Assembly: GCF_011758655.1 (NCBI RefSeq)
Contig: NZ_JAAMPA010000001.1
Location: 2,108,001 to 2,172,000 of the forward strand
DNA length: 64,000 nt
DNA from: Modestobacter marinus
GTDB lineage: Bacteria > Actinomycetota > Actinomycetes > Mycobacteriales > Geodermatophilaceae
Reading direction: 5' to 3'
Shown here one piece after another: positions 9,959 through 61,448 of the stretch (its first letter is position 1; each line of letters opens with the position of its first letter). The notes below the pieces were generated by a model. It worked only from the letters and a program-made list of their open reading frames with translations. It made no database searches and was not told where the DNA came from. The position numbers and the translations under genes were made by a program.

Positions 9959-10789
9959 GTGGGACGAGTCACCAGCCGCACCCCGGTGCTGCGCATCCGC
10001 GGCGCCGTGCACACCCGACGGCCCGACACGGTCGCCTCCGAGGAGCCCCTGGAGATCCGGCTGGCCGGCGAGCCGCTGGCGGTGACCATGCGGACCCCGG
10101 GCGACGACTTCGACCTGGTGCACGGCTTCCTGACCACCGAGGGCGTCATCGCCTCGGCGGCGGACATCGCGGGGCTGCGGTACTGCAACTCCGTCGACGA
10201 CGAGGGCCGCAACACCTACAACGTCGTGGACGTGGACCTGGCACCCGGGGTGCAGGCCCCGGACACCGCACTGGACCGGAACTTCTACACGACCAGCTCC
10301 TGCGGGGTCTGCGGCAAGGCCAGCATCGACGCCATCCGCACGAAGACCGCCTACGACGTCGCCGCCGACGACACCCGGCTGACGCTGGAAACGCTGCTGG
10401 CGCTGCCCGACCGGCTGCGCGCCGCCCAGCAGGTGTTCGACAAGACCGGCGGGCTGCACGCCGCCGGCCTGTTCTCCGCCGGCGGCGAGCTGGTGGCGCT
10501 GCGGGAGGACGTCGGCCGGCACAACGCGGTGGACAAGGTGGTCGGCGACGCGGTGCGGGAGGGCCGGGTGCCGCTGGCCGGGCACGTGCTGATGGTCAGC
10601 GGCCGGTCGTCCTTCGAGCTCACCCAGAAGGCGGCGATGGCCGCGGTGCCGGTGCTGGCCGCGGTGTCGGCGCCCAGCTCGCTGGCGGTCGAGCTCGCCC
10701 AGGAGGTGGGCATCACCCTGATCGGCTTCCTCCGCGGCGACGGCTGCAACGTCTACACCCACCCCGAGCGCCTGGTCCTGCCGGACTAG
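9959..10789 (+). CDS. fdhD: Formate dehydrogenase accessory sulfurtransferase FdhD
   Basis: FdhD passes sulfur from a cysteine desulfurase to the molybdenum cofactor of formate dehydrogenase. The 276-residue product has TTSSCGVCGKAS with the sulfur-carrying Cys115 and Cys118, plus EDVGRHNAVDKVVG and SGRSSFELTQKAAMA, all family hallmarks. GTG 9959 is chosen because of the -10 box 7 nt upstream; GTG 9941 would add six residues. No formate dehydrogenase is in the window. Confidence 0.95.
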   Translation: MGRVTSRTPVLRIRGAVHTRRPDTVASEEPLEIRLAGEPLAVTMRTPGDDFDLVHGFLTTEGVIASAADIAGLRYCNSVDDEGRNTYNVVDVDLAPGVQAPDTALDRNFYTTSSCGVCGKASIDAIRTKTAYDVAADDTRLTLETLLALPDRLRAAQQVFDKTGGLHAAGLFSAGGELVALREDVGRHNAVDKVVGDAVREGRVPLAGHVLMVSGRSSFELTQKAAMAAVPVLAAVSAPSSLAVELAQEVGITLIGFLRGDGCNVYTHPERLVLPD

Positions 10790-10914
10790 ACAGCGGGTAC
10801 GGATCCTCGTCCGGGAGCGCAGCGCGGGCCGCAGGCTCGCCGCTGCGATCGCGGGCACCGGCTCGACGCGGGCCGGGACGCCTCCCGGCCGCGGTGGAGC
10901 GCGGTGGCGCGACG

Positions 10915-11408
10915 TCAGACGTGGTCGCCGCCCCGCAGCTGGCTGACCACGTGCGGCAGCAGGGGGCCGAGCACGGCGAGGCCGTCGCGGACGCCGCCGG
11001 TGGACCCGGGCAGGTTGACGATCAGGGTGCGTCCGGCGGTGCCGGCGATGCCGCGGGACAGCACCGAGGTGGGCACCTCCCCCTCCCCGTACCGGCGCAC
11101 CGCCTCGGCGATGCCGGGGGCCTCGCGTTCCAGCACCGTGCGGGTGGCCTCCGGCGTGACGTCGGTGGGGGAGAGCCCGGTGCCGCCGGTGGTCAGCACG
11201 ACGTCGGCCCCGCCGGCCACGGCCTCCCGCAGCACCTCGGTGAGCGCCGCGACGTCGTCCGGGCGGACGTGGGGGCCCTCCACGGTGAACCCGAGCGCGC
11301 GCAGCCCCTCGGCGAGCGCCTGACCGGAGCGGTCGGGGTAGACCCCGGCCGAGGCGCGGTTGGAGGCGGTGAGCACGACGGCCCGGGCGTCGGCCGGCAG
11401 GTCGGCGC

Positions 11409-11412
<4 letters not shown>
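10915..11412 (-). CDS. moaB: MogA/MoaB-family molybdopterin adenylyltransferase
   Basis: This family adenylylates molybdopterin before metal insertion by MoeA. The 165-residue product has TTGGTGLSPTDVTPEAT (the molybdopterin-binding motif), VVLTASNRASAG near the start and NLPGSTGGVRDGLAVLGPLLPH near the end. Its ATG overlaps the moaC stop by 4 nt (ATGA), making it the third gene of moeA-moaC-moaB. MoaB and MogA cannot be separated reliably by eye. Confidence 0.92.
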
Positions 11413-11890
<478 letters not shown>

Positions 11891-11894
<4 letters not shown>

Positions 11895-13096
11895 TGGAGG
11901 GCTCCTTCGATCAGGACGACGGTGACCTGGGCGCCCTCGGGCAGGTCGGTGACGTCCTCGGGGACGACGACGAGGCAGTTGGCGCGGGCGAGGTGGGCGA
12001 CCAGGTGCGAACCGGGCCCGCCGACCTGGTCGACGACCTCCCCGTCGAACCGCCCGCGCAGGAACTGCCGGCGGCCGGCCGGCGAGCGCAGCGGGGCGGT
12101 GAGCCGGGCGGTGGTGCGCAGCCGCTCGGGGGAGGCGTGGCCGAGGGCGCGGCGCAGGGCCGGCCGGACGAACACCTCGAAGGAGACGAAGGAGCTCACC
12201 GGGTTGCCGGGCAGCGTGATCACCGGGACGCCGTCGACGGTGCCGGCGCCCTGCGGGCCGCCGGGCTGCATGGCGACCTTGCCGAACTCGACCGTGCCGA
12301 GCCCGGCGAAGGCGTCCTTGACCACCTCGTAGGCGCCGGCGCTGACCCCGCCGCTGGTCACCAGCAGGTCGGCGTCCGGCAGCTCGGCGCGGACGGTGGT
12401 GAGGAACTGCTCGATGTCGTCGGGCACGAAGTGCAGCGTGCGGGCCTCGCCACCGGCCTCGGTGACGGCGGCGGCGAGCAGCACCGAGTTGGACTCGTAG
12501 ATCTGGCCCGGCTGCAGGGGGAGACCCGGTTCCACCAGCTCGCTGCCGGTGGAGAGCACCAGCACCCGGGGTCGGCGCCGCACCGGCACGGTGTCGTACC
12601 CGACCGCGGCCGCGAGCCCCAGCTGGGCCGCGCCGAGCGCGGTGCCGGCGGGCATGGCCAGGTCGCCGGCCTGGATGTCCTCACCGGCGTGCCGGAGGTG
12701 GGTGCCGGCGGAGGGGGCGGAGGTGATGGTCACGACGTCGGTGCCGGCGTCGGTGCGCTCGACCGGGACGATCACGTCCGCGCCGTCCGGGACCGGGGCG
12801 CCGGTCATGATGCGGTGCACCGTGCCGGGCAGCAGGGGCGGCACGTCGGTGCGCCCGGCCGGCAGGTCGGCGGCGACGGGCAGCTGGACGGGGGTCTCCG
12901 CGGTGGCCGTCCCCACCTCGGCGTGCCGTGCGGCGTAGCCGTCCATGGCGGAGTTGTCGAAGCCGGGCAGCGACACCCGGGCGGGGAGATCGCGGGCGAG
13001 CACCCGCCCGGCGGCCGCGGCGAGCGGGACCTCCTCGACCGGCAGGGGGCTGAGCAGCCCGGAGACCGCTGCCTGGTGTTCCTCGACCGTGCGCAC
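11891..13096 (-). CDS. moeA: Molybdopterin molybdenumtransferase
   Basis: MoeA inserts molybdate into adenylylated molybdopterin. The 401-residue product has the N-terminal region FDNSAMDGYA, the central MoCF domain with VLVLSTGSELVEPG and TSGGVSAGAYEVVKDAF, and LPGNPVSSFVSFEVFVRPALR before the C-terminal barrel. GTG 13096 fits the conserved start MRTVEEHQAAV. A GAGGAT box 6 nt upstream could be a -10 element or a ribosome site. It leads the overlapping moeA-moaC-moaB operon. Confidence 0.95.
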
Positions 13097-45703: not shown

Positions 45704-46765
45704 ATGACAGAGACGGTCACGGAGGCGTCGAGCGGTCACCCGATCGAGTGGCCGGCTCCCACCAGCCAGCGCGCCTGGCCGTCGATCTCCGTGGTCATGC
45801 CCGTGCTGAACGAGTCCCGGCACCTGGCCGAGAGCGTCGGCGAGATCCTCGCCCAGCACTACCTCGGCGAGCTCGAACTGATCATCGCCCTGGGACCGTC
45901 GCGGGACGACACGGACCGCGTGGCCCGGGAGCTCGCCGCCTCCGACTCCCGCGTGAAGCTGGTGCGGAACCCGACGGGCAAGACGCCTGCGGGGCTCAAC
46001 GTCGGCGTGCTGGCGGCCAGTCATGAGATCGTCGCCCGGGTCGACGGGCACGGCATCCTGCTCCCCGGCTACCTGGAGCGGGCCGTCTGCCTGCTGGAGT
46101 CCACCGGCGCCGCCAACGTCGGCGGGCTCATGCTCGCGGTCGGTGTGACGGGGTTCGAGCAGGCCGTCGCCCAGGCCTACCGCTCGCCGGTCGGGCTGGG
46201 CGGCGGGAGCTTCCACGTCGGGGGCGTCGAGGGCCCGGCCGACTCCGTCTACCTCGGGGTCTTCCGGCGCGAGGTCCTGCAGCGACTGGGTGGGTTCAAC
46301 GAGCACTACCAGCGCGCACAGGACTGGGAGCTGAACCACCGGATCCGGCAGGCCGGCGAGCTCGTCTGGTTCTCCCCGGACCTCGCCGTCACCTACCGGC
46401 CGCGGTCCTCCTGGGTCGAGCTCGCCCGCCAGTTCTACGCGACCGGTCGGTGGCGCCGCGAGGTCATCCGGCAGTACCCGGACACCATCTGCGCCCGGTA
46501 CCTGGCACCACCGCTGGTCGTCTGCGCGATCCTCCTGGGCGCCGCAGCGGGTCTGGCCGCAGCGACGGTCGGGGTGCCCGCCCTCCTGTGGGGCTGGCTG
46601 GCCCCGGTGGCCTACGGACTCGGCGTGCTGGGGGCCTCGGTGCTGCAGAGCCGGGACCTGGGCTGGCGCGCCCGTGCCTGGTTCCCGGCAGTGCTCGCCA
46701 CCATCCACCTCAGCTGGGGTGCGGGCTTCCTGTTCGGCCGGCGGCCGGGCGGTCGCGGCCGGTGA
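45704..46765 (+). CDS. GT2 glycosyltransferase (ExoA-like), membrane-associated
   Basis: A 353-residue family 2 glycosyltransferase. SVVMPVLNESRHLAESVGEILAQ opens the GT-A fold; GKTPAGLNVGVLAASHEIVARVDGHGIL includes the DxD-equivalent DGH; RRAQDW-type acceptor region appears as HYQRAQDWELNHRIR. The C-terminus has two or three membrane helices (about 265-325). It resembles succinoglycan ExoA-type enzymes. It is the first gene of GT2-permease-ATPase-Stealth. Confidence 0.85.
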   Translation: MTETVTEASSGHPIEWPAPTSQRAWPSISVVMPVLNESRHLAESVGEILAQHYLGELELIIALGPSRDDTDRVARELAASDSRVKLVRNPTGKTPAGLNVGVLAASHEIVARVDGHGILLPGYLERAVCLLESTGAANVGGLMLAVGVTGFEQAVAQAYRSPVGLGGGSFHVGGVEGPADSVYLGVFRREVLQRLGGFNEHYQRAQDWELNHRIRQAGELVWFSPDLAVTYRPRSSWVELARQFYATGRWRREVIRQYPDTICARYLAPPLVVCAILLGAAAGLAAATVGVPALLWGWLAPVAYGLGVLGASVLQSRDLGWRARAWFPAVLATIHLSWGAGFLFGRRPGGRGR

Positions 46766-46818
46766 CCCTGCGCACCTCCGAGGACCTGGAGCGCGTCGCC
46801 TGTCTACCGTCTGAGGGC

Positions 46819-47640
46819 ATGGCGGGCAGCACCGAACTGGTCGCGGCCCGCCGGCGAGGTCCCGCGCGGCGGGTCGTGGCGTTGTGGGGACGGCGGCGGG
46901 CCCTCCGCCTGCTGGTGGCCCGTGACCTCAAGGTGCGCTACGCGTCCTCCTCGTTGGGCTACCTGTGGTCGGTGCTCGAGCCGCTGCTGATGGCGGGCAT
47001 CTACTGGTTCGTCTTCACCCAGGTCTTCGCCCGGTCGGTGGGCGCGGAGCCCTACATCGTCTTCCTGCTGGCCGGGCTACTGCCCTGGACGTGGTTCAAC
47101 ACCGCGGTCGGAGACACGGCGAAGGCGTTGCGCAGCGACGCGAAGCTGGTCCGGTCCACCAACGTGCCCCGGGAGATCTGGGTGCTGCGGGTGGTGGTGT
47201 CCAAGGGCATCGAGTTCGTCCTCAGCCTGCCGGTGCTCTTCCTCTTCGCGCTCGTCCAGGCGGCGTCGGTGAACTGGCGGATCCTGTTGCTCGTCCCGGC
47301 GGTGCTGCTGCAGGCGACGCTCCTGCTCGGCCTGGGCCTGATGCTCGCCCCGATGATCGTGCTGGTCCGCGACCTGGAGAGGGTCGTACGGATCGCGCTG
47401 CGACTGGGCTTCTACGCCTCACCGGTGATCTTCGCCGTCTCCGACGTGCCGGGGCCATGGGCCGGGCTGTTCGCACTCAACCCGCTGTCCGGGATCTTCG
47501 AGCTGTGCCGGGCCGGCTTCTTCCCCGAGCAGCTGAACTGGGCCCACGTGGGGGTCTCCGTGGTGTTCTCCCTCGCCGTCCTCGCCGGCGGGTGGGCCGT
47601 CTTCGCCCGGCTCGAGCGCACCGTGCTGAAGGAGATCTGA
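46819..47640 (+). CDS. ABC-2 transporter permease for polysaccharide/teichoic acid export
   Basis: A 273-residue membrane protein with six predicted helices and the Wzm/TagG pattern: LLVARDLKVRYASSSLGYLWSVLEPLLMAGIYW at the cytoplasmic entry helix and FALNPLSGIFELCRAGFF near the end. ATG 46819 lies 8 nt after TACCGT; the alternative GTG 46762 overlaps the upstream stop by 4 nt and would add 19 residues. The ATPase gene starts inside its stop (TGATG). Confidence 0.88.
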   Translation: MAGSTELVAARRRGPARRVVALWGRRRALRLLVARDLKVRYASSSLGYLWSVLEPLLMAGIYWFVFTQVFARSVGAEPYIVFLLAGLLPWTWFNTAVGDTAKALRSDAKLVRSTNVPREIWVLRVVVSKGIEFVLSLPVLFLFALVQAASVNWRILLLVPAVLLQATLLLGLGLMLAPMIVLVRDLERVVRIALRLGFYASPVIFAVSDVPGPWAGLFALNPLSGIFELCRAGFFPEQLNWAHVGVSVVFSLAVLAGGWAVFARLERTVLKEI

Positions 47641-48395
47641 TGGCGACGGCGATCGACCTGCGGCCGGTCATCTCGGTTCGGGACGTCGGGGTCCGCTTCC
47701 AGCGCGGCCGGCGGCAGCGCAGCCTGCGTGACTGGGCGCTGCGTGCCGACCGCGGTACGCGTCCGGGGGAGTTCTGGGCCCTGGACGACGTCTCCTTCGA
47801 CGTCCGGCCGGGTGAGGCCATCGGCGTGGTCGGCCGCAACGGGCAGGGCAAGTCGACGCTGCTCAAGCTCATCGCCGGCGTCCTGCTCCCCGACCGGGGC
47901 CAGGTGACCGTCCGCGAGGGGGTCGCTCCGCTGATCGAGATCACCGGTGGTTTCGTCGCCGACCTCACCGTTCGCGACAACATCGGTCTGACGGCGGGTC
48001 TGCACGGCATGTCCAAGGCGATGATCGCCGAGCGGTTCGACGAGATCGTGGACTTCGCCGAGATCTCGGAGTTCCTCGACACCCCGTACAAGCACCTTTC
48101 CAGCGGCATGCAGGTGCGGGTCGCCTTCGCGGTGGTCTCCCGGCTGGAGGAGCCCGTGATCCTGGTGGACGAGGTGCTCGCCGTCGGCGACAAGGCCTTC
48201 AAGCGCAAGTGCTACGCCCGGATCGACGAGCTGATCGCCGAGGGGCGGACCCTGTTCCTGGTCTCGCACAGCGACCGGGACCTCCGTCGGTTCTGCACCC
48301 GCGGCCTGTACCTGCGGCAGGGGCGGCTCGTCGAGGACGGGCCGATGGACGACGTCCTCACTTCCTACGCCGCGCAGGACGGCAAGGACTCATGA
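47640..48395 (+). CDS. ABC transporter ATPase for polysaccharide/teichoic acid export
   Basis: A 251-residue ATPase of the Wzt/TagH type. Walker A is GRNGQGKST, the signature is LSSGMQVRVAFAV and Walker B is VILVDEVLAVGD, with the H-loop in LVSHS. An N-terminal extension (VGVRFQRGRRQRSLRDWALR) is typical of O-antigen and teichoic acid exporters. There is no C-terminal carbohydrate-binding domain. It pairs with the permease immediately upstream. Confidence 0.92.
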   Translation: MATAIDLRPVISVRDVGVRFQRGRRQRSLRDWALRADRGTRPGEFWALDDVSFDVRPGEAIGVVGRNGQGKSTLLKLIAGVLLPDRGQVTVREGVAPLIEITGGFVADLTVRDNIGLTAGLHGMSKAMIAERFDEIVDFAEISEFLDTPYKHLSSGMQVRVAFAVVSRLEEPVILVDEVLAVGDKAFKRKCYARIDELIAEGRTLFLVSHSDRDLRRFCTRGLYLRQGRLVEDGPMDDVLTSYAAQDGKDS

Positions 48396-48441
48396 GCGAG
48401 TGCCCGTCGGCACCGCGACCGACCGGATGCCGGAGAGAACG

Positions 48442-50226
48442 ATGAGCCCCAGTCTCACGAGCAGGGTCCCCGTGCGCCTGCAGCAGCAGGCCCACCGCGT
48501 CCTCCCCGCGCCCGCGTGGCGGCTGGCACGGGACGTGGGCACGGGGACGACCGCGTGGCAGAAGCGCGTCACCGCAGCGCGGTTCGAGCGGATGCGGCGC
48601 GCGGCCGAGCCGGACGTCGACGGGCCGCTCACGGTCGTGCGCTACCGCAACGAACGCTTTCTCGCCCGGCCGGTCGACCGGTTCCGCGCGGCGGACACCC
48701 TCGCCGCCAATGCCGCCTTCGTCGCCGACGCCCTCGAGCGGGCCGGCGTGCGGTACCTCGTCGTCGAGGCCCCGGTGAACCGCCGGCGGGTGCTGGCCGT
48801 GGCCGACACCGACCGGACCGCGGCCTGGGCGGCCCTGGTGGCGGCGGGTGACCGGATGCCGGTCTACGTCCGTGAGCTGAGCCCCCGGGGGGACCGGCCG
48901 AGCGTGCGCCTCGGTTCGCTGGCGGGGTCCTCCACCGGACCCACGGCCGCCACGGTGTTCCAGGTCCAGGCGGCAGCCGGGTCGGGCGAGGCACTGGCCG
49001 GCCCCGAGCTGGGCTGTGTGCTGGAGTTCTGGCGGGAGCTCGCCGAGGACGTGCCGGACGACCACCAGACGGGTGAGCCGCTGTGTGCCGGGTCCTGGGT
49101 GGCCCCGCGGCGGAACCGCTGGGTGGACGCGGTGCCCGGAGACATCGGTGAGCCGGCGCGCTGGGTCGTCGACGGGGTCGAGCGTCCGGCGGTCCCGGCC
49201 CTCACCGGGCGGCACGCGTTCGACGTCGACTTCCCCATCGACGTGGTCTACACCTGGGTCGACGGCAGCGACCCGGCGTGGCAGGAGCGCAAGGCGGCGG
49301 CGCACGCCGCCGTGGGTCTCGGTGAGCTGAACGAGTTCGCCAGCAACGAGTCGCGCTTCCTGTCCCGGGACGAGCTCCGCTACTCGCTGCGGTCGCTGGA
49401 CATGTACGCCAGCTGGGTGCGGCACGTCTACCTGGTGACCGATGACCAGGTGCCCGACTGGCTGGACGTCTCGAACCCGCGCATCACCGTGGTGAGCCAC
49501 CGGGAGCTGTTCGCTGACCGGGGGAAGCTGCCGACGTTCAACTCGCACGCGATCGAGTCGCAGCTGCACCACGTCCCCGGACTCAGCGACCACTTCCTCT
49601 ACCTGAACGACGACTTCTTCTTCGGCCGGCCGGTCGCTCCACAGACGTTCTTCGACGGCAACGGACTGGCCCGCTTCTTCACCTCGACCGCGAAGCTGGG
49701 TCTCGGCGGTACCGGTGCGTTCGACCGGCCGGTGATGAGTGGGGGGAAGAACAACCGGGACCTGCTGTTCAAGGCCTTCGACCGAGTGGTCACGAACAAG
49801 TTCAAGCACGTCCCGCAGAGCCTGCACCGCGACCTGCTCCTGGAGATGGAGGAGCGGTTTGCCGCGGAGTTCGCGGCGACGGCGGGCCACCAGTTCCGCA
49901 GCCCGGCAGACCTTTCCATCGTCTCCTCGTTGCACCACCACTACGCCTACCTGAGCGGGCGGGCGGTGGAAGGGCGGATGCGCTACATGTACGCCGACAT
50001 CGCTGCGCCGGAGACCGCGCGGCGGCTGGAGCGGATGCTCGCCTCCCGCAACTACGACACCTTCTGCCTCAACGACCACGACACGTCCGGTGTCGACCCC
50101 GCGGTGCAGCAGCAGATGCTGCACTCGTTCCTGAGCCGGTACTTCCCCCTGCCCAGCAGCTTCGAGAGGATGTCCCACTCAAAGGGGGGCACCCCGGTCA
50201 CGGGCACCTCGCCGCAGACCGTCTGA
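48442..50226 (+). CDS. Stealth-family sugar-phosphate transferase
   Basis: A 594-residue protein. The C-terminal 331 residues (from 264) hold the four Stealth regions: IDVVYTWVDGSDP (CR1), SRDELRYSLRSLDMYASWVRHVYLVTDDQVPDW (CR2, written across positions 312-345), PTFNSHAIESQLHH and LYLNDDFFFGRP (CR3) and the ADLSIVSSLHHHYAY block (CR4). Such enzymes transfer hexose-1-phosphate to build phosphodiester-linked capsules. Residues 1-260 are an unassigned domain. ATG 48442 follows GGAGAG; ATG 48427 is possible. Confidence 0.88.
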   Translation: MSPSLTSRVPVRLQQQAHRVLPAPAWRLARDVGTGTTAWQKRVTAARFERMRRAAEPDVDGPLTVVRYRNERFLARPVDRFRAADTLAANAAFVADALERAGVRYLVVEAPVNRRRVLAVADTDRTAAWAALVAAGDRMPVYVRELSPRGDRPSVRLGSLAGSSTGPTAATVFQVQAAAGSGEALAGPELGCVLEFWRELAEDVPDDHQTGEPLCAGSWVAPRRNRWVDAVPGDIGEPARWVVDGVERPAVPALTGRHAFDVDFPIDVVYTWVDGSDPAWQERKAAAHAAVGLGELNEFASNESRFLSRDELRYSLRSLDMYASWVRHVYLVTDDQVPDWLDVSNPRITVVSHRELFADRGKLPTFNSHAIESQLHHVPGLSDHFLYLNDDFFFGRPVAPQTFFDGNGLARFFTSTAKLGLGGTGAFDRPVMSGGKNNRDLLFKAFDRVVTNKFKHVPQSLHRDLLLEMEERFAAEFAATAGHQFRSPADLSIVSSLHHHYAYLSGRAVEGRMRYMYADIAAPETARRLERMLASRNYDTFCLNDHDTSGVDPAVQQQMLHSFLSRYFPLPSSFERMSHSKGGTPVTGTSPQTV

Positions 50227-50244: not shown

Positions 50245-53079
50245 TCAGCTCTCGTAGCGGCCCGGAAAGGGCCAGTAGGCCTGGAGGAACGAGCGGACCA
50301 TGTCGTCGACCTCTTCCTCTGGCAGCCCCGTGTCGTGGAAGTCCCCGATGGAGAAGACGTCGAAGTTGCGCTCCGTGAGGAGTTGCCCCAGTCGTCGGCC
50401 GATGTCGTCGCCGCCCAGTCCGACGTATGCCGCTCGGATGTTCCCGTACACGGCTTGACCTGTAAGAAGGCCGTAGTGCTGGACCAGTGAGGAGGTGACC
50501 GACAGGTCCTCGTCGTGACGGAAGGGATGCCCGGCTGTGAGGGCGTACTCGACCGGGTATCGCTCCTCCAACTCGGTCAGCAGCGACCGACGCATGGGGT
50601 GTGCCACGTGCAACATGCCATTCGTGATCGTCCGGCCGAAATCCCGCCGTAGCAGCGCGCGGTTGTTCAATGCGGCGCGCACGTGCGGCGGCGCCTCCCC
50701 AGAGGGGAAGCCGACCAGCGTCGGTGACTTAAAGACCCGGGGAAGGCCGCCCGGCGTGAAGAACATGTCGGGCGAGACGGGTCGGCCGAAGAAGACGTCG
50801 TCGTTGACGTACAGGAAGTGGTCCGCCAGTCCGTCGATGTGATGGAGCTGTGACTCGATCGCGTGTGAGTTGAAGGTGGGCAGGTCAGCGGGTCGTTGGA
50901 ACAGATCTCGGTGGTCGACGATCGTGAGGCCGGGATGGTCTTCGGCGACCCAGCTGGGCACCTGGCCGGCAGTCACGAGGAAGACGTGTCGGACCCAGGG
51001 TGCGTGGTATTCCAGGGATCGCAGCGAATACCGCAGCTCGTCACGCGACCGATAGCGTGCCTCGCTGTCCGCCTCGAGGTGGAGACGTCCGCCCGCCTCC
51101 GCCCGTCGGCTGCGCCTCGTGGTCAGCCACGCTGGGTCACTGCCGTCGACCCAGGTGTAGACGGCGTCGATGTCGAAGGTGACGGTGTCGACGGAGGTGA
51201 ACCCGGACAGCCGGGACAACTCGGCCACGGGAACTCCACCGTGTGTGACCGTGGTCCGCTCGGTCAGCCACTCCCACGGTATCTCTGACACGATCCCCTC
51301 CCCGTGGCCGACCAAGTGATCACCCTCGTCATGCCAGAACGCCAGATCGCATCCCAATTCGGCCCCGTAGAGGAGGGTGCGCTGAGGGTCGGCCCACCGC
51401 CGGAAGAGGCGTACTCGTGTGGGTTCGGAGCGCCAGAAGTCGTAGGCCTCGTCGGTCAGCACTCCTCGGCTGGCCCTACCATTCTGATCCACCGCAGCGA
51501 CGTACAGCCCGCCGACGTCTGCGGCCCGGGACAGGGCCTCGGCGATCCGGCGGCGGTCGCGATCCGGAACGACTATGGTCGTCCGGGCCCCAGGCCCGGG
51601 CAGCCGGAAACCGGGCGACCCGGTGACGGCGATGGCCTCTACGGCGATTCGCAGGTTCTCCTGCCGGGCGTCCTCAGGGAGCAGTGCGGTGTTCGCCGCG
51701 ACCTCGGAACCGGCTAGGAGCAGTATCTTCTCCCGGGATGACGGTCTGAGTGGCTGATCCACAGTGTCGGTGCCCGTGGTCCCGCTGGGAGCCGCCGGCG
51801 GGACAAGCGGTGTGTCGATGACCACGTCGTCGGCTGCGTCCCGTCGAGACGGACGATGGCGCGGCGGGTCGAGCGTTCGGCGGATCACCCGCTCGAGACG
51901 CGTCTCGCCGTCACGGACGTCGGCCAACAGGTCGAGGAAGTGCCCCTCCCAAGTCTCGGCGATCGTCTCGGCGGCGAAGGCACGGGCACGGAGTCTCGCT
52001 GCCTCGCCGAGTGCCTGCCGCCGCTCGCCGTCCCGGACGAGCGAGATCAGAGCCGTCGTCAGTTCGCCGACGTTACCGTTCTCGACGAGCAGTCCGTCGA
52101 CGCCGTGAGTGATGAGCTGGGCGGGGCCGTTCGGGCATGCGTAGCTGACGACGGGTGTGCCAGCCGCCATGGCCTCTTGGATCACCAAGGAAAGGCCCTC
52201 GTTGCGTGAGGACAGAGCCGCAATGCTCGCGGCCGCCCACTCCGCGCTCATGACGGAGCTCGGACCCATGATCTCCACCTGATCGGTGAGCTGTTTGCGT
52301 GAGATCTGCCGTCGCAGGGCGGGCTCCTGGGGACCGCTGCCGAACAACCGCAGCGTCCACTGCGGATGGGCCTCAGCTATGGGCGCGAACGCATCGATCA
52401 GGTGGTCGAACCGCTTCTCAGCTGTCAACCGGCCTGCAGCGACGATGAGCGGGCGCTTGTGGCCGCTGACCGGCCGCAGATCGGGCGTCAGGGGGTTGAG
52501 CACCTGGATCAGGGTGGGGGCTGCAGAGCCCCAGGCATCACGGAAGTGCTCCACGGAAGGAGTCGTGAGGAAGGCGACCGCGTCGACGCGTGGACCATGG
52601 CTCATCAGGGGTGCCAGCGTCGCCCCTCGGCGTTCGGACGTCCGGTGCTCCTGGTGTACCACCACGACCCGATGAGGTGCCAGCTCCGAACCGATCGCCA
52701 GCAGGGCAGGCGTGGTGGTCACCAGCACGTCGCAGTCCAGCTCCCTCAGCCAGCGAGTCATCGCGAGGTCCGTGAGCTGGCTGAAGGCAGACTCCCAACC
52801 GCCGGGGATCAACCTGGACGGAGCTGCATGAAGCTCCTCCAGCCTCCTGGGCGGCAGGTCGACTCCCTCGACCGCTGACGGCAGGCCCTCGGCGTCCGTT
52901 CGAACGAGGACCCGATGGGCCACGGCCGTCGGTATGGGGAAGAACGGCTCTGGCCGCGACGAGATCACCCCGACGATCTCTACCTGGTGGCGGTGGGCCA
53001 TGGCCTCGGCCTGCGTGATGATGCTTCGTTCGGTGCCGCCCATCTCGAACGGCCAGGTGAGCAGGTAGACGATCTTCAT
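50245..53079 (-). CDS. Fusion of GT4 glycosyltransferase and Stealth sugar-phosphate transferase
   Basis: A 944-residue two-enzyme protein. Residues 1-400 are a GT-B fold of family 4: MKIVYLLTWPFEMGGTERS at the start and NEGLSLVIQEAMAAGTPVV with the EX7E motif. A linker (about 410-455) and a middle domain follow. From 635 the Stealth regions appear: IDAVYTWVDGSDP, RDELRYSLRSLEYHAPWVRH, PTFNSHAIESQLHH, YVNDDVFFGRPVSP and EDLSVTSSLVQHYG. Its ATG overlaps the upstream stop by 4 nt. It is convergent with the other Stealth gene, 18 nt apart. Codon use is less GC-biased than its neighbours. Confidence 0.88.
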   Translation of the reverse strand: MKIVYLLTWPFEMGGTERSIITQAEAMAHRHQVEIVGVISSRPEPFFPIPTAVAHRVLVRTDAEGLPSAVEGVDLPPRRLEELHAAPSRLIPGGWESAFSQLTDLAMTRWLRELDCDVLVTTTPALLAIGSELAPHRVVVVHQEHRTSERRGATLAPLMSHGPRVDAVAFLTTPSVEHFRDAWGSAAPTLIQVLNPLTPDLRPVSGHKRPLIVAAGRLTAEKRFDHLIDAFAPIAEAHPQWTLRLFGSGPQEPALRRQISRKQLTDQVEIMGPSSVMSAEWAAASIAALSSRNEGLSLVIQEAMAAGTPVVSYACPNGPAQLITHGVDGLLVENGNVGELTTALISLVRDGERRQALGEAARLRARAFAAETIAETWEGHFLDLLADVRDGETRLERVIRRTLDPPRHRPSRRDAADDVVIDTPLVPPAAPSGTTGTDTVDQPLRPSSREKILLLAGSEVAANTALLPEDARQENLRIAVEAIAVTGSPGFRLPGPGARTTIVVPDRDRRRIAEALSRAADVGGLYVAAVDQNGRASRGVLTDEAYDFWRSEPTRVRLFRRWADPQRTLLYGAELGCDLAFWHDEGDHLVGHGEGIVSEIPWEWLTERTTVTHGGVPVAELSRLSGFTSVDTVTFDIDAVYTWVDGSDPAWLTTRRSRRAEAGGRLHLEADSEARYRSRDELRYSLRSLEYHAPWVRHVFLVTAGQVPSWVAEDHPGLTIVDHRDLFQRPADLPTFNSHAIESQLHHIDGLADHFLYVNDDVFFGRPVSPDMFFTPGGLPRVFKSPTLVGFPSGEAPPHVRAALNNRALLRRDFGRTITNGMLHVAHPMRRSLLTELEERYPVEYALTAGHPFRHDEDLSVTSSLVQHYGLLTGQAVYGNIRAAYVGLGGDDIGRRLGQLLTERNFDVFSIGDFHDTGLPEEEVDDMVRSFLQAYWPFPGRYES

Positions 53080-53987
53080 CCTCGCGGCGCTGCCTGCTGG
53101 TTCGTGTCGATCTCCACTGCTAGGTACCGGTCCTTCGTGAAGTAGGGGCGGAACACCAGGACGGGGCCGGTCGCCGGAGGTTGGTAGCTGGAGGTGACGT
53201 ACCGGTAGACCCGCCGCGGATCGCTGACGTCCCGAGCGGTGCGCCCGCATCGAGTAAGTCCATCGGAGCTCTGTACGAAGACGTCCCAAACCGACGTGGG
53301 CGTGCTCACCGCCTCCTGGGCGACCTGGTCCAAGGGCACGGTCACTGCCGCGGTCCGGTCGGTCAGGGCGAGCGGGACGGAGACCCGGCCCGTACCGCCA
53401 CGCTGGGCGAGGACCAGTGCGGTGGGTTCTGGCCCGGACCACCGGACGAGCTCAACCGTCAGTGCCAGCCGCCCCGGCTCGCTCACGAGCTCCGATACCT
53501 CGACGCTCGTGGGCGCGGCGGCCACCCGCAAGGCCGCCAGCCCATCCGCGGTGCGGTATGGGGTGATGATTAAGCCGCTGCTCCCGGCCACGGGGCTGGC
53601 GGGGGGGACCGGGTACAGCTGTGCGCGCTCGCCCAGTCGCAAACGCACGGGCGAGTGGCCCGGCGCCCTCACCGCCAGGTCCCAGATGCCCTCGTCTTGA
53701 GCGGTCAGGAGGTCCGCGAGCGATCCAGCGGCGAGCAGGGCACTCGGTCGCGCCTGCTGCCCGATCATGTCGGCGAGCGTCGGTGCGGGCAGAGGTCGGA
53801 CATCCCGGTGCTTGCGGCGAACTGCCACGAGCTCAGCCCCCGGCCAGGCCGGCACGTCGGCGGAGATCCACAGGTCGTCTCCGTTGATCACCGCCAAGTA
53901 GGTGATCTCACGCGGCGCCGGGGTCTCCGAGGTCTTAAGCCGTGCCCTCGCACGACACAGCACTCTGCGTCGTGCCTCTCGAGCCAT
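53076..53987 (-). CDS. Uncharacterised beta-rich protein coupled to the GT4-Stealth fusion
   Basis: A 303-residue protein with no recognised catalytic motif. Two stretches resemble each other: LIITPYRTADGLAALRV (about 140-156) and VLVFRPYFTKDRYLAVEI near the end, each of form PYxTxD...LAxxV. Similar short motifs close beta-sandwich domains in TagF-like and surface-glycan proteins. ATG 53987 lies 7 nt after GATCGT; GTG 54041 would add 18 basic residues. The 4-nt overlap with the fusion gene implies joint function. Low G+C like its neighbour. Confidence 0.65.
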   Translation of the reverse strand: MAREARRRVLCRARARLKTSETPAPREITYLAVINGDDLWISADVPAWPGAELVAVRRKHRDVRPLPAPTLADMIGQQARPSALLAAGSLADLLTAQDEGIWDLAVRAPGHSPVRLRLGERAQLYPVPPASPVAGSSGLIITPYRTADGLAALRVAAAPTSVEVSELVSEPGRLALTVELVRWSGPEPTALVLAQRGGTGRVSVPLALTDRTAAVTVPLDQVAQEAVSTPTSVWDVFVQSSDGLTRCGRTARDVSDPRRVYRYVTSSYQPPATGPVLVFRPYFTKDRYLAVEIDTNQQAAPRG

Positions 53988-54353
53988 CCGTCTTACGATC
54001 TTGACCAGCCTCCCCCGACGTCGAGCCGGGATGGTACCCACGAGTGGACGACGCCACCGAGATCCGGTGGGGCGGCGAGCCGCTCAGCCCGGATGCTCCG
54101 GCGCCGGAGCCACGACCCGCCACGGCCCCGCCGTCCCGGTCTCGTAGACAGTTGCTGCGTCAGTCGTATGCACATCCGGATTGCACTGCGGGCACTCGGG
54201 CTGGTGCGCGGCTGTGGGACGGCGGCGACGCGCTGAGCAGTCTCGATCCGCTCGGCTCGACAGCTGGCCGGAAGAGGAGGGCGCCACCGGTCCAGCTCAA
54301 GACCGCTCCTCATCGGCCGAACTCTCCCCTGACCTTTCTGGAGAGGACACCGC
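53988..54353. other. Divergent intergenic region
   Basis: 366 nt between the uncharacterised gene (-) and the M23-FN3 gene (+). Only the minus-strand -10-like GATCGT (54000-53995) and the plus-strand ribosome site GGAGAGGA just before 54354 can be named. The G+C content rises back toward the genome level here, so this is the edge of the poorer-GC segment. No gene is supported. Confidence 0.3.
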
Positions 54354-55767: not shown

Positions 55768-57033
55768 ATGGTCCTCCAGCAAGCCCCTGCTCGACCGCAC
55801 TCGGAGACCCCCGACCGGGGTGTTCTGAACCGCGGGCGGCCGCAGCAGGCCGGGCCGAGCCGACTGCGTGCCCTGGACGGCCTCCGGCTGCTGGCCGCCC
55901 TGTCCGTGGCGGTCTACCACTACCTCGCCTACGAAGGTGCGGCTCCGGCCTGGGGCCAGGCGCCGAGCAGCCTCTTCCCCCAGTGGTCGGGGGCCGCGGC
56001 CTACGGGTGGCTCGGCGTCGAGGTGTTCTTCGTCATCAGCGGGTTCGTCATCTGCATGAGCTGCTGGGGACGCTCCCTCGGCGACTTCTTCCGGTCCCGC
56101 GTCACCCGGCTCTACCCGGCGTACTGGGCCGCGGTGGTGCTGACGACCGTCGTGGTCACCGTGACGCCCGCGATCGGTCAGGACATCCCGTTCACCGATG
56201 TGCTGGTGAACCTCACGATGTTGCAGGACGCGGTGGGGGCGGACCGTGTCGACGGCGTCTACTGGACCCTGTGGGTCGAGCTGCGGTTCTACCTGCTGTT
56301 CGCGCTGCTGGTCTGGGGCGGGCTCACCTTCCGCCGGGTGCTGGCCTTCTCGCTCATCTGGACGGTCGTGGCTGCGCTCGCGCGTACCGCCGACAGCGAG
56401 TTGCTGACCCTGGTCGCCATGCCGAAGTACGCGCCCTACTTCCTCGTGGGCATCGGGATCTACCTGGTCCACCGGTTCGGCGACCACCTGCTGAGCTGGC
56501 TGGTCATCGGGGTCAACGCGATCCTGAGCTACCACTACGCGGTCCTGCGCATGGACCACCAGGCGGAGGACGTCGTCCACCAGCCGCTGAGCCGGCTGAT
56601 CGTCGGGCTGGTGCTGTTCGGGGGGATCGCCCTGGTGGCGGCGATCGCCCGGGGGCACCTCGGCTGGGTGCGCTGGCGGTGGGTGAGCTACGCGGGCGCC
56701 CTGACGTACCCCTTCTACCTGCTGCACGACTACATCGGCTTCGCCCTGATCAACTGGCTCTACGACCGCGTCGGGGTCTCGGCCTACGCGGTGCTGCCCG
56801 TGACGGTGACGGCCATGCTGGTCCTGGCTTGGCTGGTCCACCGCCTCGCCGAGAAGCCGCTGGCCCGCTGGCTGAAGGTCCGGCTGACGTCCGGCGCGAT
56901 GACCCTGGACCCCCGCGACCTGCTGTCACGGCGCCGACCGGTGCCCGCTGCGACGCCGGACGCAGCCACCCCGGGCGCTCAGGCCGCCGGGCCGGGGCGG
57001 AGCCGGGACGAGGTGACGATCGCCAGGAAGTGA
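55768..57033 (+). CDS. Acyltransferase 3 family membrane protein (OafA-like)
   Basis: A 421-residue membrane O-acyltransferase. RLRALDGLRLLAALSVAVYHYL carries the family start, with GVEVFFVISGFVICM and FFRSRVTRLYPAYW following. About ten helices continue to residue 370. The polar C-terminal tail (about 380-421) is Ala/Pro/Arg-rich. It likely acetylates or succinylates a surface sugar. ATG 55768 lies 6 nt after GATACT. Its last 55 nt overlap the convergent phosphotransferase gene. Confidence 0.88.
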   Translation: MVLQQAPARPHSETPDRGVLNRGRPQQAGPSRLRALDGLRLLAALSVAVYHYLAYEGAAPAWGQAPSSLFPQWSGAAAYGWLGVEVFFVISGFVICMSCWGRSLGDFFRSRVTRLYPAYWAAVVLTTVVVTVTPAIGQDIPFTDVLVNLTMLQDAVGADRVDGVYWTLWVELRFYLLFALLVWGGLTFRRVLAFSLIWTVVAALARTADSELLTLVAMPKYAPYFLVGIGIYLVHRFGDHLLSWLVIGVNAILSYHYAVLRMDHQAEDVVHQPLSRLIVGLVLFGGIALVAAIARGHLGWVRWRWVSYAGALTYPFYLLHDYIGFALINWLYDRVGVSAYAVLPVTVTAMLVLAWLVHRLAEKPLARWLKVRLTSGAMTLDPRDLLSRRRPVPAATPDAATPGAQAAGPGRSRDEVTIARK

Positions 57034-57800
57034 CCGGCGACGGCCAGCAGCGAGGCTGGGATGAGCACCAGGAGAAGCACCTGGGTGCCGGTCAGGTCGC
57101 CGACCACCAGGTCGACGACGGCGGCGACCAGGATGATGATGCTCAGCTCGATCGAGTGGTACAGCCGGTGGAACGGGACGAACCGGGCCAGCCGGCGCAG
57201 CCGGGCCAGTCCGCTGGTCCGCGGGGCCGTCGTCGCCTCGTCGTCCGCGGCGCGGGGGAGCCCGGCTGCGGCGCGGGAGACGTGCACCATGTCGTTGAGC
57301 GACTTGTTGAGCACGATGACCACGGCCAGCAGCGCCCCCAGGGTCGTCCAGCCGTAGCCCTGCCCGTCGGACAGCTCGTCCAGACCACCCGCGGCGCGTG
57401 CCCCCAGGGCGAGGGGGATCAGCGACTCGGTGCCGTAGTGGCCGACCCGGTCCAGGAAGACGCCCAGCGGGCTGGACGTGCCGCGCCACCGCGCGACCTC
57501 GCCGTCGCTGGCGTCCCAGAGCATCTGCATCTGGGTCAGCAGCACGGCGAGCACCGCGCCACCCAATCCCGGCAGCAGCAGGGCTGGGCCGGCCGCGAAG
57601 CCGGTCACGATCATCAGCGCCGTCACGGCGTTGGCCGACAGCCCGGCCCGGACGAGCGCCCGGGTGAGGTAGGGCGAGATCTGCCGCATGTACAGGTCGC
57701 CCGTCCAGTGCTCGGCGCTGCGCCGTCCCCGGATCGCCGGTGGCTGGGTGACCTCGCGGAGCTGCGCGATGCTGGGCCAGGCCGGCCGCGGAGCCGTCAC
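56979..57800 (-). CDS. CDP-alcohol phosphatidyltransferase-family protein with altered motif
   Basis: A 273-residue membrane protein. The CDP-alcohol motif is present as DASDGEVAR (Asp96, Asp99, Gly100, Ala103, Arg104), Gly113 and Asp117, but the fourth acidic position, normally the catalytic base, is His121 (DRVGHYG). Six membrane helices are predicted. It would transfer a phospho-alcohol from a CDP donor, possibly a CDP-polyol made in this operon. GTG 57800 overlaps the upstream stop by 4 nt. Confidence 0.82.
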   Translation of the reverse strand: MTAPRPAWPSIAQLREVTQPPAIRGRRSAEHWTGDLYMRQISPYLTRALVRAGLSANAVTALMIVTGFAAGPALLLPGLGGAVLAVLLTQMQMLWDASDGEVARWRGTSSPLGVFLDRVGHYGTESLIPLALGARAAGGLDELSDGQGYGWTTLGALLAVVIVLNKSLNDMVHVSRAAAGLPRAADDEATTAPRTSGLARLRRLARFVPFHRLYHSIELSIIILVAAVVDLVVGDLTGTQVLLLVLIPASLLAVAGHFLAIVTSSRLRPGPAA

Positions 57801-59029
57801 TGCAGGGCCTCCTTCGCGCGGATCCGATCGTCGTCCCGGGCGGTCAGCACGTCCTGGCAGGCGTCCAGGAACCGGCCCAGTGCCGCCGCGGGGTCACCGC
57901 CACCCAGGTAGTGCTCGACGAGGGCGCCCCGCGCTGCCCGCTCCGGGTCGTCCTCCAGGCACCGGCGCACCAGCTCGGCCGTGTCCGCGGCCGCTGTCTG
58001 CGCGAGCCGCGGGGTGGCCGCCAGCAGCGGGGAGGGTGGCACCACGGCACCGGCCTCGGCCGGCTCCGTGACCACCAGGGGTCGGCCCGTGGGCAGCCAC
58101 TCCACCGCGACCGAGGACACGTCGGTGATCAGCAGGTCCGCGTCACTGAACGCCTCGGTCAACGGCCCTCCTGGGTCGAGGACGCTGCCGGTGGCCTGGA
58201 CGGCGGGTTCGTCGAACACCCGGCGGAGGGCGGCGTCGGCCTCGGCCACGTCCCGCCGGTTCGCGCCGGTGCGCGGGTGCGGCCGGTAGACCACCCGCAG
58301 TCCCGCACCGGTCAGGGAACGCACCAGCGCCTCCCCGTGGGTCGGCACCGAGCTGTAGGCCATCGACGGCTGCCCGCCCTCCCAGGTGGGTGCGTACAGG
58401 ACGGTCGGCCGTTGACCGGCGGGTCGGTGACGCTCCGCGATCGAGACCTGGGGCCGACCGATCCGGACCAGCCGGTCGAGGTCGAACCACATCAGCTCGC
58501 CGGCGATCCGGTCCACGGCGGCCTGCCCGGCGACGAAGGACCGGTCGTAGGCCTTCAGCTGGTTGGAGGCCGAGACCGCCTTGTCGCTCTCCCCGTGACC
58601 CAGGTACACGTGCGCGAGCGAGGGGTAGCGCAGCAGCTGGAAGTTGCGGGGGTGGTGGCTCACGTAGAGCGCCAGCGCGAGCCGGCCGCGGGAGACCAGG
58701 CCGTCGAGCGTCGCGGTGCGCGCCACGCAGTGCACCGGCAGGGTGGTCCCGGCCCGCAGCTGTGCGGTGGTCCGGCTGTCCTGGGTGATCAGCACGACGC
58801 CCTGCCGGCGGTCCAGGTGTTCCAGCGGGCGGAGCCACTGTTCGAGCTGGTAGGCGTTGCGCGGTGGCTCCGGGAAGAAGACGACGACGCGCTGGTCGAG
58901 AACCCGGCCGGTGAGCTGCGCGTCCTCGCCGATGGCGTCGGGCTCGCCCCCCGGCAGCAACCGGCGCCGGAGGAGGCGCCCGCCCCGCGCGCGGAGACGC
59001 CTGGCGGAGGCGGGAAGGGAGAGGTGCAC
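57797..59029 (-). CDS. TagB/TagF-like CDP-polyol phosphotransferase
   Basis: A 410-residue GT-B protein of the CDP-glycerol glycerophosphotransferase family. VYLGHGESDK is the acceptor/base motif, TVLYAPTWEGG and VVYRPHPRTGANR are donor-site motifs, and LLITDVSSVAVEWLPTGRPLVV is the C-terminal signature. Known members add glycerol- or ribitol-phosphate to teichoic acids. With a CDP-ribitol-synthase-like gene upstream, ribitol phosphate is a plausible unit. GTG 59029 lies 39 nt after the GT2 gene stop. Confidence 0.88.
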   Translation of the reverse strand: MHLSLPASARRLRARGGRLLRRRLLPGGEPDAIGEDAQLTGRVLDQRVVVFFPEPPRNAYQLEQWLRPLEHLDRRQGVVLITQDSRTTAQLRAGTTLPVHCVARTATLDGLVSRGRLALALYVSHHPRNFQLLRYPSLAHVYLGHGESDKAVSASNQLKAYDRSFVAGQAAVDRIAGELMWFDLDRLVRIGRPQVSIAERHRPAGQRPTVLYAPTWEGGQPSMAYSSVPTHGEALVRSLTGAGLRVVYRPHPRTGANRRDVAEADAALRRVFDEPAVQATGSVLDPGGPLTEAFSDADLLITDVSSVAVEWLPTGRPLVVTEPAEAGAVVPPSPLLAATPRLAQTAAADTAELVRRCLEDDPERAARGALVEHYLGGGDPAAALGRFLDACQDVLTARDDDRIRAKEALQ

Positions 59030-59951: not shown

Positions 59952-61448
59952 TCAGCCAACGGTGACGTCGTCCAGTTCGACGCCCTCGGGGAGGACGTCG
60001 CCCGGTTCCTCCTCGTGGATGACCGCAGCCGCGATGGCCGCGTCGAGGTGCGAGGCCAGCTTGTCCTCCCGACGCACGTCGACGACGTGCCCGGTCCACC
60101 CCGAGACCAGGACCTCCAGGGAGATGGCAGCGACCGCGTCGGAGGCCAGCAGGGAACTGGCCGGCTCCTGGCCGAAGGCCTTCGTGCGCATCGGGGTGCC
60201 GGTGCGCTCGGGGTTGACGCAGTTGACCCGGACGCCGTCACAGGCCCACTCGTCGGCCAGGGCCTGCGTCAGGTTCACGACGGCTGCCTTCGCGGAGGAG
60301 TAGAGGCTGTACCCACTCCGGCCACGGGTGTACGAGCTGGACGTGAACAGCAGCAGCGACCCCCGGGTGACCTGCAGGTGGGGCTGGAATACCTGGGCGA
60401 TGTGGATGGGGGCCAGGTAGTTCACGTCGGTGGCGAGGTAGATGGTCTCCTCGCTGGTGTCCGAGAGCTCGCCGCGTGGCAGGACCCCGGCGGTGTTGAC
60501 GACGAAGTCCACCCGGCCGGTGGTGGCGAGCACCTGCTCGCAGGCGGCGACGATGTCCGCTCGCCGCTCGACGTGGGTGCCCGTCGACGACCGGCTGAAC
60601 GTCATCGCGGTCGCGCCGTACCCCTCGGCCAACCGGACGATGTCCTGGCCGATGCCGTAGGACCCCCCGAAGACGACGACGGTCTTGCCGTCCAGTGCGG
60701 CGCGGTACTCGGCGTCCGAGCGGGGACCGGGGGCGTCGTGGCTGTCGAGCTGGAAGAGCTTGTCGGCCAGGTACACGTCGATCGGCTCGGTGACCTTCAT
60801 GTTCCGTTCTTCACCGCGGACGACGGCGATCGGCACCTCGGGCGCATACCGGAGGACGACGGTGCAGTCGTCCGTGGCCTCGAAGTCCGGGTCCTCGGTG
60901 GCGACGGAGTAGGCCCGGCGGATCACCGAGAGCCGGAAGCACTGCGGCGTCTGACCACGACGGAGCAGCGGCCGGCGCAGGACGTCCTCGATGGTGTCGC
61001 CGGCTCCGCCGTCGACCTGGATGATCGTGTCGGCCGACGGGATGGCGGTGTCCACCGCCTCGTACTCGGCCAGCGCGGCGACGCAGTCCGCGATGACCCG
61101 CTGGCTCAGCAGTGGCCGGACCGCGTCGTGCAGCAGCACGTTGCACTCCTCGTCGCCGAGGGCGTCCAGCGCCCGGCGCGTGGTGGCGTTCCGCGTCTCG
61201 GCGCCTTCCAGGACGCGGGTCACCTTCGGGTAGGTGCCTGGGCGGAGGATCGCCTGGACGGCGTCGAGGTGACCCGGCGTCATCATGACGACGATCTCGT
61301 CGACGTGCGGCGAGGCCTGCAGGACCCCGATGGTGTGCTCGATGATCGGCTTGCCGGCGACCTTGATCAGCTGCTTGGGGATCGACAGGCCGACTCGGGA
61401 ACCCGTACCGCCTGCCAAGACCACCGCGACGTTACGGAGGGAGGACAC
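59952..61448 (-). CDS. Bifunctional cytidylyltransferase-SDR reductase, CDP-ribitol synthase type
   Basis: A 498-residue fusion. Residues 1-235 are an IspD/TarI-like cytidylyltransferase (VVLAGGTGSRVGLSIPKQ, NVLLHDAVRPLLS, TPQCFR). Residues 250-475 are a short-chain reductase (VVVFGGSYGIGQD; YSLYSSAKAAVVN with the Tyr-x3-Lys pair). Haemophilus Bcs1/Acs1 combine ribulose-5-P reductase and CDP-ribitol synthase in the same way. GTG 61448 lies 6 nt after a TATGGT box. It heads a four-gene minus-strand operon. Confidence 0.88.
   Translation of the reverse strand: MSSLRNVAVVLAGGTGSRVGLSIPKQLIKVAGKPIIEHTIGVLQASPHVDEIVVMMTPGHLDAVQAILRPGTYPKVTRVLEGAETRNATTRRALDALGDEECNVLLHDAVRPLLSQRVIADCVAALAEYEAVDTAIPSADTIIQVDGGAGDTIEDVLRRPLLRRGQTPQCFRLSVIRRAYSVATEDPDFEATDDCTVVLRYAPEVPIAVVRGEERNMKVTEPIDVYLADKLFQLDSHDAPGPRSDAEYRAALDGKTVVVFGGSYGIGQDIVRLAEGYGATAMTFSRSSTGTHVERRADIVAACEQVLATTGRVDFVVNTAGVLPRGELSDTSEETIYLATDVNYLAPIHIAQVFQPHLQVTRGSLLLFTSSSYTRGRSGYSLYSSAKAAVVNLTQALADEWACDGVRVNCVNPERTGTPMRTKAFGQEPASSLLASDAVAAISLEVLVSGWTGHVVDVRREDKLASHLDAAIAAAVIHEEEPGDVLPEGVELDDVTVG

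Follow-up and report, generated by a model that had tools for sequence, protein, structure and literature searches.

A GT4–Stealth fusion protein in Modestobacter marinus and other actinobacteria as a candidate bifunctional polymerase

The stretch of the Modestobacter marinus genome analyzed here, hereafter the window, spans 64,000 nucleotides of contig NZ_JAAMPA010000001.1. One of its genes (50245–53079, minus strand; coordinates without a locus prefix are those of the window) encodes, in a single chain of 944 residues, a GT4 glycosyltransferase followed by a Stealth sugar-phosphate transferase domain. The single chain, both folds in predicted models, the conservation of the key residues and of the fusion itself, and the recurrence of neighboring genes were computed in this work. 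Our preferred reading, which we consider a little better than evenly poised, is that the protein is a cytosolic bifunctional polymerase that would form alternating glycosidic and phosphodiester bonds. A single alternating polymerase is the best reading because in two relatives the corresponding gene position, or slot, is occupied by a GT2-TagF or a TagF-GT4 fusion.

Architecture and predicted active sites

The frame begins with an ATG and is read through 944 residues with no internal stop. A frameshift or assembly artefact joining two genes, which the initial annotation had named as a finding that would overturn its proposal, was rejected, since many genomes carry the same open, collinear frame: full-length fusions of 38–71% identity are found in seven other genomes and also in many named genomes, and the one continuous chain first described is borne out. 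An AlphaFold2 model calculated with 37 relatives in the alignment (mean predicted local distance difference test score, pLDDT, 86.7; predicted template modeling score, pTM, 0.61) is folded through residue 403, which closes the GT4 half (residues 1–403; 51871–53079, minus strand, as are all parts of the gene). A disordered linker with pLDDT below 50 follows (residues 404–451; 51727–51870), then an accessory module of the Stealth half (452–630; 51190–51726) and the Stealth catalytic domain (635–943; 50251–51177). The accessory module is folded in the model and is also present in Stealth1, the stand-alone Stealth protein encoded next to the fusion, which fusion residues 495–943 match at 44%.

The domain search and structure prediction that had been suggested as checks both recovered the two halves. 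In the GT4 half, Glyco_transf_4 at residues 13–184 (2.9e-07) and Glycos_transf_1 at 207–363 (1.8e-33) scored above their Pfam cut-offs, and a fold search with the AlphaFold2 model placed residues 1–387 on 6eji (Z 40.8) and residues 1–383 on TarM (4x7r, Z 38.6), with BshA (6d9t, Z 38.2) also among the nearest GT4-type folds. The EX7E motif extends from Glu 294 to Glu 302 (52174–52200), with Glu 302 kept in 60/60 and Glu 294 in 58/60 fused rows of the alignment; the complete GT-B fold with EX7E read earlier from the sequence holds. Eight positions (Gly 14, Gly 15 and Thr 16 of the GGT motif, His 145, Arg 217, Lys 222, Glu 294 and Glu 302) are jointly intact in 55 of these 60 rows; among the exceptions, L086 and L090 deviate at Gly 14 alone and one fusion of L067 (frame at 6625) at Gly 14 and Thr 16. 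The GT-B fold, the EX7E motif and the Arg and Lys of the donor-phosphate site are shared with GT4 enzymes of the TarM, SdgB, BshA and 6eji type, whose solved chains of about 360–500 residues, in contrast, match the GT4 half only. Retaining transfer by this half is a prediction from its family.

In the Stealth half, Stealth_CR1 (residues 635–660; 1.6e-12, 47.3 bits), Stealth_CR2 (675–780; 4.8e-45, 152.6 bits) and Stealth_CR3 (824–869; 1e-15, 57.8 bits) were all matched above the Pfam cut-offs. Three of the four Stealth blocks previously reported from residue 635 onward are thus confirmed, whereas the fourth, CR4, is divergent and falls below its cut-off. By fold search, residues 609–944 superimpose on the human phosphotransferase 9bgf (Z 38.5), residues 628–944 on the GlcNAc-1-phosphotransferase 7sj2 (Z 38.0), and residues 635–944 on CpsY of Mycobacterium tuberculosis (8j2n; Z 35.3, root-mean-square deviation 1.5 Å, 47% identity in the structural alignment, which covers the solved construct of CpsY, residues 201–520). 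In the human enzyme, Arg 322, Asn 406, Asp 407, Asp 408, His 956, Arg 986 and Asn 1151 either line the Stealth pocket or function within it (PMC11418123). The fusion equivalents of the first six are Arg 675, Asn 759, Asp 760, Asp 761, His 824 and Arg 854, and these residues and Glu 742 are each kept in 64/64 fused Stealth domains, a set that contains near-duplicates from overlapping genome sets. Residues 759–761 (50797–50805) form the NDD motif, to which a catalytic role is assigned from the human enzyme (PMC11418123). In CpsY, which shares the key residues, R419K and R419Q abolish activity, and E305A, N322A and D324A lower it 200- to 500-fold (PMC10668966). The human protein GNPTAB likewise shares the Stealth fold and the catalytic residues Arg 322, Asn 406 to Asp 408, His 956 and Arg 986, but its domain scheme is without a GT4 half and it acts on lysosomal glycoproteins.

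A difference from both proteins lies in CR4 (residues 900–943; 50251–50382), which was matched at 1.7e-04 and 21.9 bits against a cut-off of 27.4. Here SIGD (residues 910–913) replaces the usual CLND or CIND, and the position of human Asn 1151 is aligned with Gly 912. CR4 was matched in 36 of 38 fused members at E 0.001. Of the 64 fused rows, 34 have Gly at the Asn position, 22 have Asn and 8 have Ala, whereas 68 of 69 stand-alone rows have Asn; the remaining one is truncated by the start of its contig and groups with the fusions. This contrast counts sequences; because two changes between Asn and other residues suffice on a tree built without CR4, loss of the Asn is taken to be an ancient feature of the fused lineage that arose in few events. 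Human Asn 1151 helps to hold the metal and, in a docked model, the acceptor, and its replacement by Ala impairs the enzyme (PMC11418123). Since the human residue has these roles, the fused enzymes may hold the metal or the acceptor differently. Inactivity of the Stealth half owing to CR4 was considered and not accepted, because the fusions carry the change widely and vary at none of the other key residues.

Fold, motifs and conservation make GT4 activity of the N-terminal half and Stealth phosphotransferase activity of the C-terminal half well-supported predictions, as had been proposed when a sugar-adding and a sugar-phosphate-adding activity were named. The loss of active-site residues that would have spoken against that proposal is seen in neither half, save for the Asn that is replaced by Gly 912. 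The TagF-like family PF04464 had no match in the window fusion at E 0.01 and was absent from the list of ten families for the 38 fusion members at E 0.001. The results of the fold searches were filled by single-domain structures, and absence from them is uninformative.

Distribution and history of the fusion

Genome contigs were scanned with an alignment of eight fusions, and the best 80 matches, corresponding to 78 actinobacterial loci, were kept. A collinear fusion was found by profile search at 55 of these 78 loci, a set rich in fusions because it was ranked by similarity to the query. The hosts include Streptomyces, Micromonospora, Actinomadura, Nocardioides, Arthrobacter, Glutamicibacter and Brachybacterium. 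Pfam and profile searches identified the proteins of L101, L106 and L108 as fusions, and the row of L083, a miscalled frame, was left out. In even genome samples, which overlap and in which the E-value limits make the counts lower bounds, full-length fusions were present in at least 2/112 genomes of the family, 8/397 of the order, 2/396 of the phylum and 13/296 of the class. Six of the 13 fusions of the class sample were found as one match, and seven were read as fusions from two adjoining matches in one open frame; some of those in the order sample match Micromonospora and Verrucosispora fusions exactly or almost exactly.

In quick maximum-likelihood trees, the fused Stealth domains form one clade, both in a tree of 133 domains that included CR4 (Shimodaira–Hasegawa approximate likelihood-ratio test, SH-aLRT, 98), where the row cut by its contig start (L087_3_1442) falls inside the clade, and in a tree of 132 domains without CR4, from which this row was dropped (SH-aLRT 79). 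In a tree of 79, the fused GT4 domains likewise group as one clade (SH-aLRT 88), which includes, as sister to the window fusion and the G052 fusion, a GT4-only protein of G096, a genome of the window's genus. Since each half forms one clade, the pairing is long-lasting across Streptomyces, Micromonospora, Actinomadura, Nocardioides and Micrococcaceae. The simplest history suggested by these trees is a single fusion event, long kept, with later loss of the Stealth half in G096.

Two kinds of variant were observed in passing. One of the six single-match fusions in the class sample (L138:3093-5873, minus strand, genome G1055) is a 927-residue GT4-Stealth relative whose frame is open and in which nearly all checked residues of both halves are gone, the NDD position reading AGG; it is likely to be a non-catalytic form. 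The loci L044, L067, L078 and L082 carry two GT4-Stealth fusions each, and some strains may therefore make two different polymers.

Gene exchange and the polymerase reading

In the window, four genes of the plus strand lead up to the fusion: a GT2 glycosyltransferase (45704–46765; relatives in G052, G050 and G094), an ATP-binding cassette (ABC) permease of the ABC-2, Wzm/TagG type (46762–47640; PF01061), an ABC ATPase of the Wzt/TagH type (47640–48395; PF00005), and Stealth1 (48400–50226), in which all four CRs score above cut-off. The fusion gene is convergent to Stealth1, and the minus-strand gene just upstream of it, the partner (53076–54041), encodes 321 residues and overlaps the ATG of the fusion with its 3' end.

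The strongest argument for a polymerase is the exchange seen in this slot in two genomes. In G050, which belongs to the window's family, the GT2-ABC-Stealth1 block is retained at 74–80% identity and is followed directly by a 973-residue GT2-TagF fusion (L125:10914-13832); a search of the G050 genome found no GT4-Stealth. In L100, from a Micrococcales metagenome-assembled genome, the convergent gene (L100:11353-14025), in the orientation of the window fusion, encodes an 891-residue TagF-GT4 fusion. The L100 Stealth is the tree row nearest to window Stealth1 (62% in the catalytic domain, same-family copies being outside the tree), a TarS_C1-TagF protein is encoded on its other side, and relatives of the ABC and CDP-alcohol transferase genes lie nearby at 43–53%. 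A GT2-TagF fusion also stands directly after Stealth in L116 (Salinispora), and others are found nearby in L111 and L119.

Capsule polymerases of these architectures (GT-A/TagF in Cps1B, Ccs2 and CslB; TagF/GT-B in Cps3D and Cps7D) likewise combine a glycosyltransferase with a sugar- or polyol-phosphate transferase in one chain, and it is their architectures that occupy the slot in the two relatives. Members of both classes polymerize with both bond types, as established by NMR, mutants and trans-complementation, and Stealth polymerases were believed to be single-domain (Litschko 2018, PMC5974469). The phosphotransferase of the window protein is a Stealth domain with its NDD motif, His and Arg, whereas theirs is a TagF domain with two catalytic His residues.

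As a polymerase, the fusion would act in turns. The Stealth half would transfer a sugar-1-phosphate from a UDP-GlcNAc-type donor onto the growing end to form a phosphodiester, the GT4 half would add a sugar with its anomeric configuration retained to form a glycosidic bond, and repetition of these turns would yield a poly(oligosaccharide-1-phosphate) of the wall or capsule for export by the adjoining ABC transporter. The upstream protein, which resembles TarS and TarK, could be a subunit of its own that targets the enzyme or holds the acceptor, and Stealth1 could act at another step, for example priming. In this scheme we infer both activities, their alternation, polymerization, the donors, the cell location and the roles of the neighbors. 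Besides the slot, the confident folds and conserved residues of both halves, the single clades of fused domains, the resemblance of the partner to teichoic-acid enzymes and the LytR-CpsA-Psr (LCP) ligase genes in 10 of 40 fusion loci speak for this reading. The fusion need not act alone, because a second Stealth, the TarS/TarK-like partner, an ABC exporter and a TagF-like gene are all nearby.

A polymer with a backbone of this kind is known, and sugar-phosphate wall polymers like it have been characterized chemically. The repeating unit of the Streptomyces coelicolor wall poly(diglycosyl 1-phosphate), or PDP, is -6)-a-Galp-(1-6)-a-GlcpNAc-(1-P-, and the accessible text of the sources names a ligase, PdtA, and no polymerase for it (PMC7831098, PMC11481543). 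Its two alpha linkages would be the products expected of a retaining GT4 together with an alpha-sugar-1-phosphate transferase. The fusion was not assigned to this polymer, either for the window organism or for S. coelicolor, since the ligase alone is named there. Presumably GT2-TagF genes lie near PdtA in S. coelicolor, and these would point to another maker of the polymer in that organism.

Several observations weigh against a single alternating enzyme. The slot swap was seen in two genomes, one of them a metagenome-assembled genome, and GT2-TagF-type frames also lie downstream of GT4-Stealth in the same locus in L047, L062 and L065 (L047:15189-18704, L062:11867-15340 and L065:7435-10944; the domains are Pfam-confirmed for L047 only), so that the kinds of gene found in the slot can coexist and are not mutually exclusive. 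In G096 the locus is kept, and its gene (L007:1501-2736) ends right after the GT4 half, giving a protein of 411 residues with all eight conserved positions and without a Stealth half; this is one draft genome, 67% complete. In two Streptomyces loci, L085 and L089 (fusion at about 10001–12874), Gly 15, Thr 16, His 145, Lys 222 and Glu 294 are lost while the Stealth residues are intact. The class sample has many stand-alone GT4 relatives (about 40%) and many stand-alone Stealth genes, and the fusion is absent from most sampled genomes (13 of 296 in that sample carry one). Because of G096, L085 and L089, the decay in L138 and the stand-alone relatives, the halves are separable as judged from these sequences, which speaks against the strict one-enzyme form. 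The CR4 of the window protein lacks the Asn at which substitution by Ala impairs the human enzyme. Finally, the TagF-like and IspD-SDR genes nearby could make the backbone instead. The proposal of the initial annotation that one polymerase alternates both bonds is therefore retained as plausible from the slot context, with the GT4-only protein, the decayed GT4 halves and the coexisting GT2-TagF frames counting against it.

The backbone could be a polyol-phosphate teichoic acid made by the TagF-like and CDP-polyol genes, which the fusion would decorate, its GT4 adding a sugar as TarM does and its Stealth half capping with a sugar-1-phosphate. The cluster does contain a TagF-like gene (57797–59029) and genes for a CDP-alcohol transferase and an IspD-SDR protein, the solved folds closest to the GT4 half include TarM (Z 38.6), the TarS/RmlT-like domain of the partner belongs to enzymes that glycosylate teichoic acids, and G096 manages without a Stealth half. 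However, relatives of the polyol genes seldom lie beside a fusion (TagF-like in 3 and IspD-SDR in 1 of 40 loci with near-full flanks), and the slot holds polymerase architectures in two relatives, so that we regard a decorating role as unlikely, although it is the strongest competitor.

The two-domain architectures in the slot also bear on the idea that the fusion makes just one glycosyl-phospho-glycosyl bond, joining a lipid-linked primer to the polymer of another enzyme, in the manner of capsule transition transferases. These are a proven class (PMC11666461), and two side-by-side Stealth genes exceed the need of one polymerase, but in the capsule pathway the priming enzymes CpsA and CpsC are separate from the polymerase CpsD (PMC11666461), and a two-domain fusion sits where relatives have two-domain polymerases; this role appears improbable. 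We find it equally improbable that the halves catalyze separate steps of a shared pathway and were fused so as to be co-regulated, with no alternation on one chain. The 48-residue disordered linker, the pTM of 0.61 and the loss or decay of either half alone (G096; L085 and L089) are consistent with such a union, but the fused proteins were retained as one clade over many genera, and L138 lost the residues of both halves together.

A broader and more tentative proposal, which we hold to be well short of an even chance, extends the polymerase reading. GT4-Stealth would be a third class of one-chain glycosyl-phosphate polymerases, making poly(glycosyl-1-phosphate) wall polymers in some actinobacteria, with a detachable TarS/TarK-like subunit, a separate Stealth primer, a rebuilt CR4 pocket (Asn to Gly or Ala) that sets the acceptor, and exchange of whole polymerase genes in the slot beside the conserved exporter. 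Such exchange, if true, would parallel the exchange of capsule types in other bacteria. If the fusion is a polymerase, it would provide a testable gene for sugar-phosphate wall polymers in many actinobacteria and an enzyme tool for defined phosphoglycans, and it would place inside a two-step machine the Stealth domain, which also occurs in the human enzyme that marks lysosomal proteins. No description of a GT4-Stealth fusion, functional or other, appears in the accessible text of the literature matches listed; public domain databases probably show the architecture, and its function is the part for which no description was found. A Stealth-family protein, AMIS_70380, is part of an Actinoplanes exopolysaccharide cluster (PMC13390465, 2026).

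Partner and neighboring genes

The AlphaFold2 model of the partner (pLDDT 84.2, pTM 0.73) comprises a basic N-terminal helix, Arg-rich by sequence, and β-strand domains, of which residues 178–318 match the wall-teichoic-acid enzymes TarS (Z 13.7), TarK (13.5) and RmlT (11.0), with 6.0 for the best other structure. Pfam TarS_C1 scored 20.7 bits on the window copy, under its cut-off of 26.3; the L061 and L052 copies had no Pfam match at E 0.01, and no PDB sequence scored below E 0.016 in a search with a profile built from 28 partner proteins. Queried with the Streptomyces copy of L061, relatives of the partner were found in 24 of the 40 near-full-flank fusion loci, and in 3/40 with the window copy. 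The count of 24 is independent of the partner profile, whose scores are circular since it was built from the set that it scored. Upstream of 40 of 55 fused genes, a frame of 230–380 codons with coding composition ends at most 80 bases from the start, mostly within 14.

Stealth1 is the only match to Stealth_CR2 in the whole genome besides the fusion, and Stealth_CR2 had no match in 14 control genomes. Beyond the partner lie an M23 peptidase and an acyltransferase gene (plus strand), followed on the minus strand by the CDP-alcohol phosphatidyltransferase (56979–57800; PF01066), the TagF-like glycerophosphotransferase mentioned above (PF04464, 5.4e-09), a GT2 gene and the IspD-SDR fusion of a cytidylyltransferase and a short-chain dehydrogenase (59952–61448; PF01128 and PF00106), which is likely to function in CDP-polyol synthesis. 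In G052, over the 20 kb compared, the gene order matches that of the window from GT2 to the partner, and the next gene differs (GT92-type). Among the 40 near-full-flank loci, a LytR-CpsA-Psr ligase is encoded in 10, a PIG-L deacetylase in 16 and a Wzt-like ATPase in 11.

In the Streptomyces locus L061, an 851-residue LytR-CpsA-Psr ligase (L061:4375-6927, minus strand) adjoins the Stealth, partner and fusion genes. A 1287-residue frame of genome G949 (L131:3302-7162, plus strand) contains the same kind of GT4 and, far downstream, a weak TarS_C1 match below cut-off, the stretch between them being without a Pfam match.

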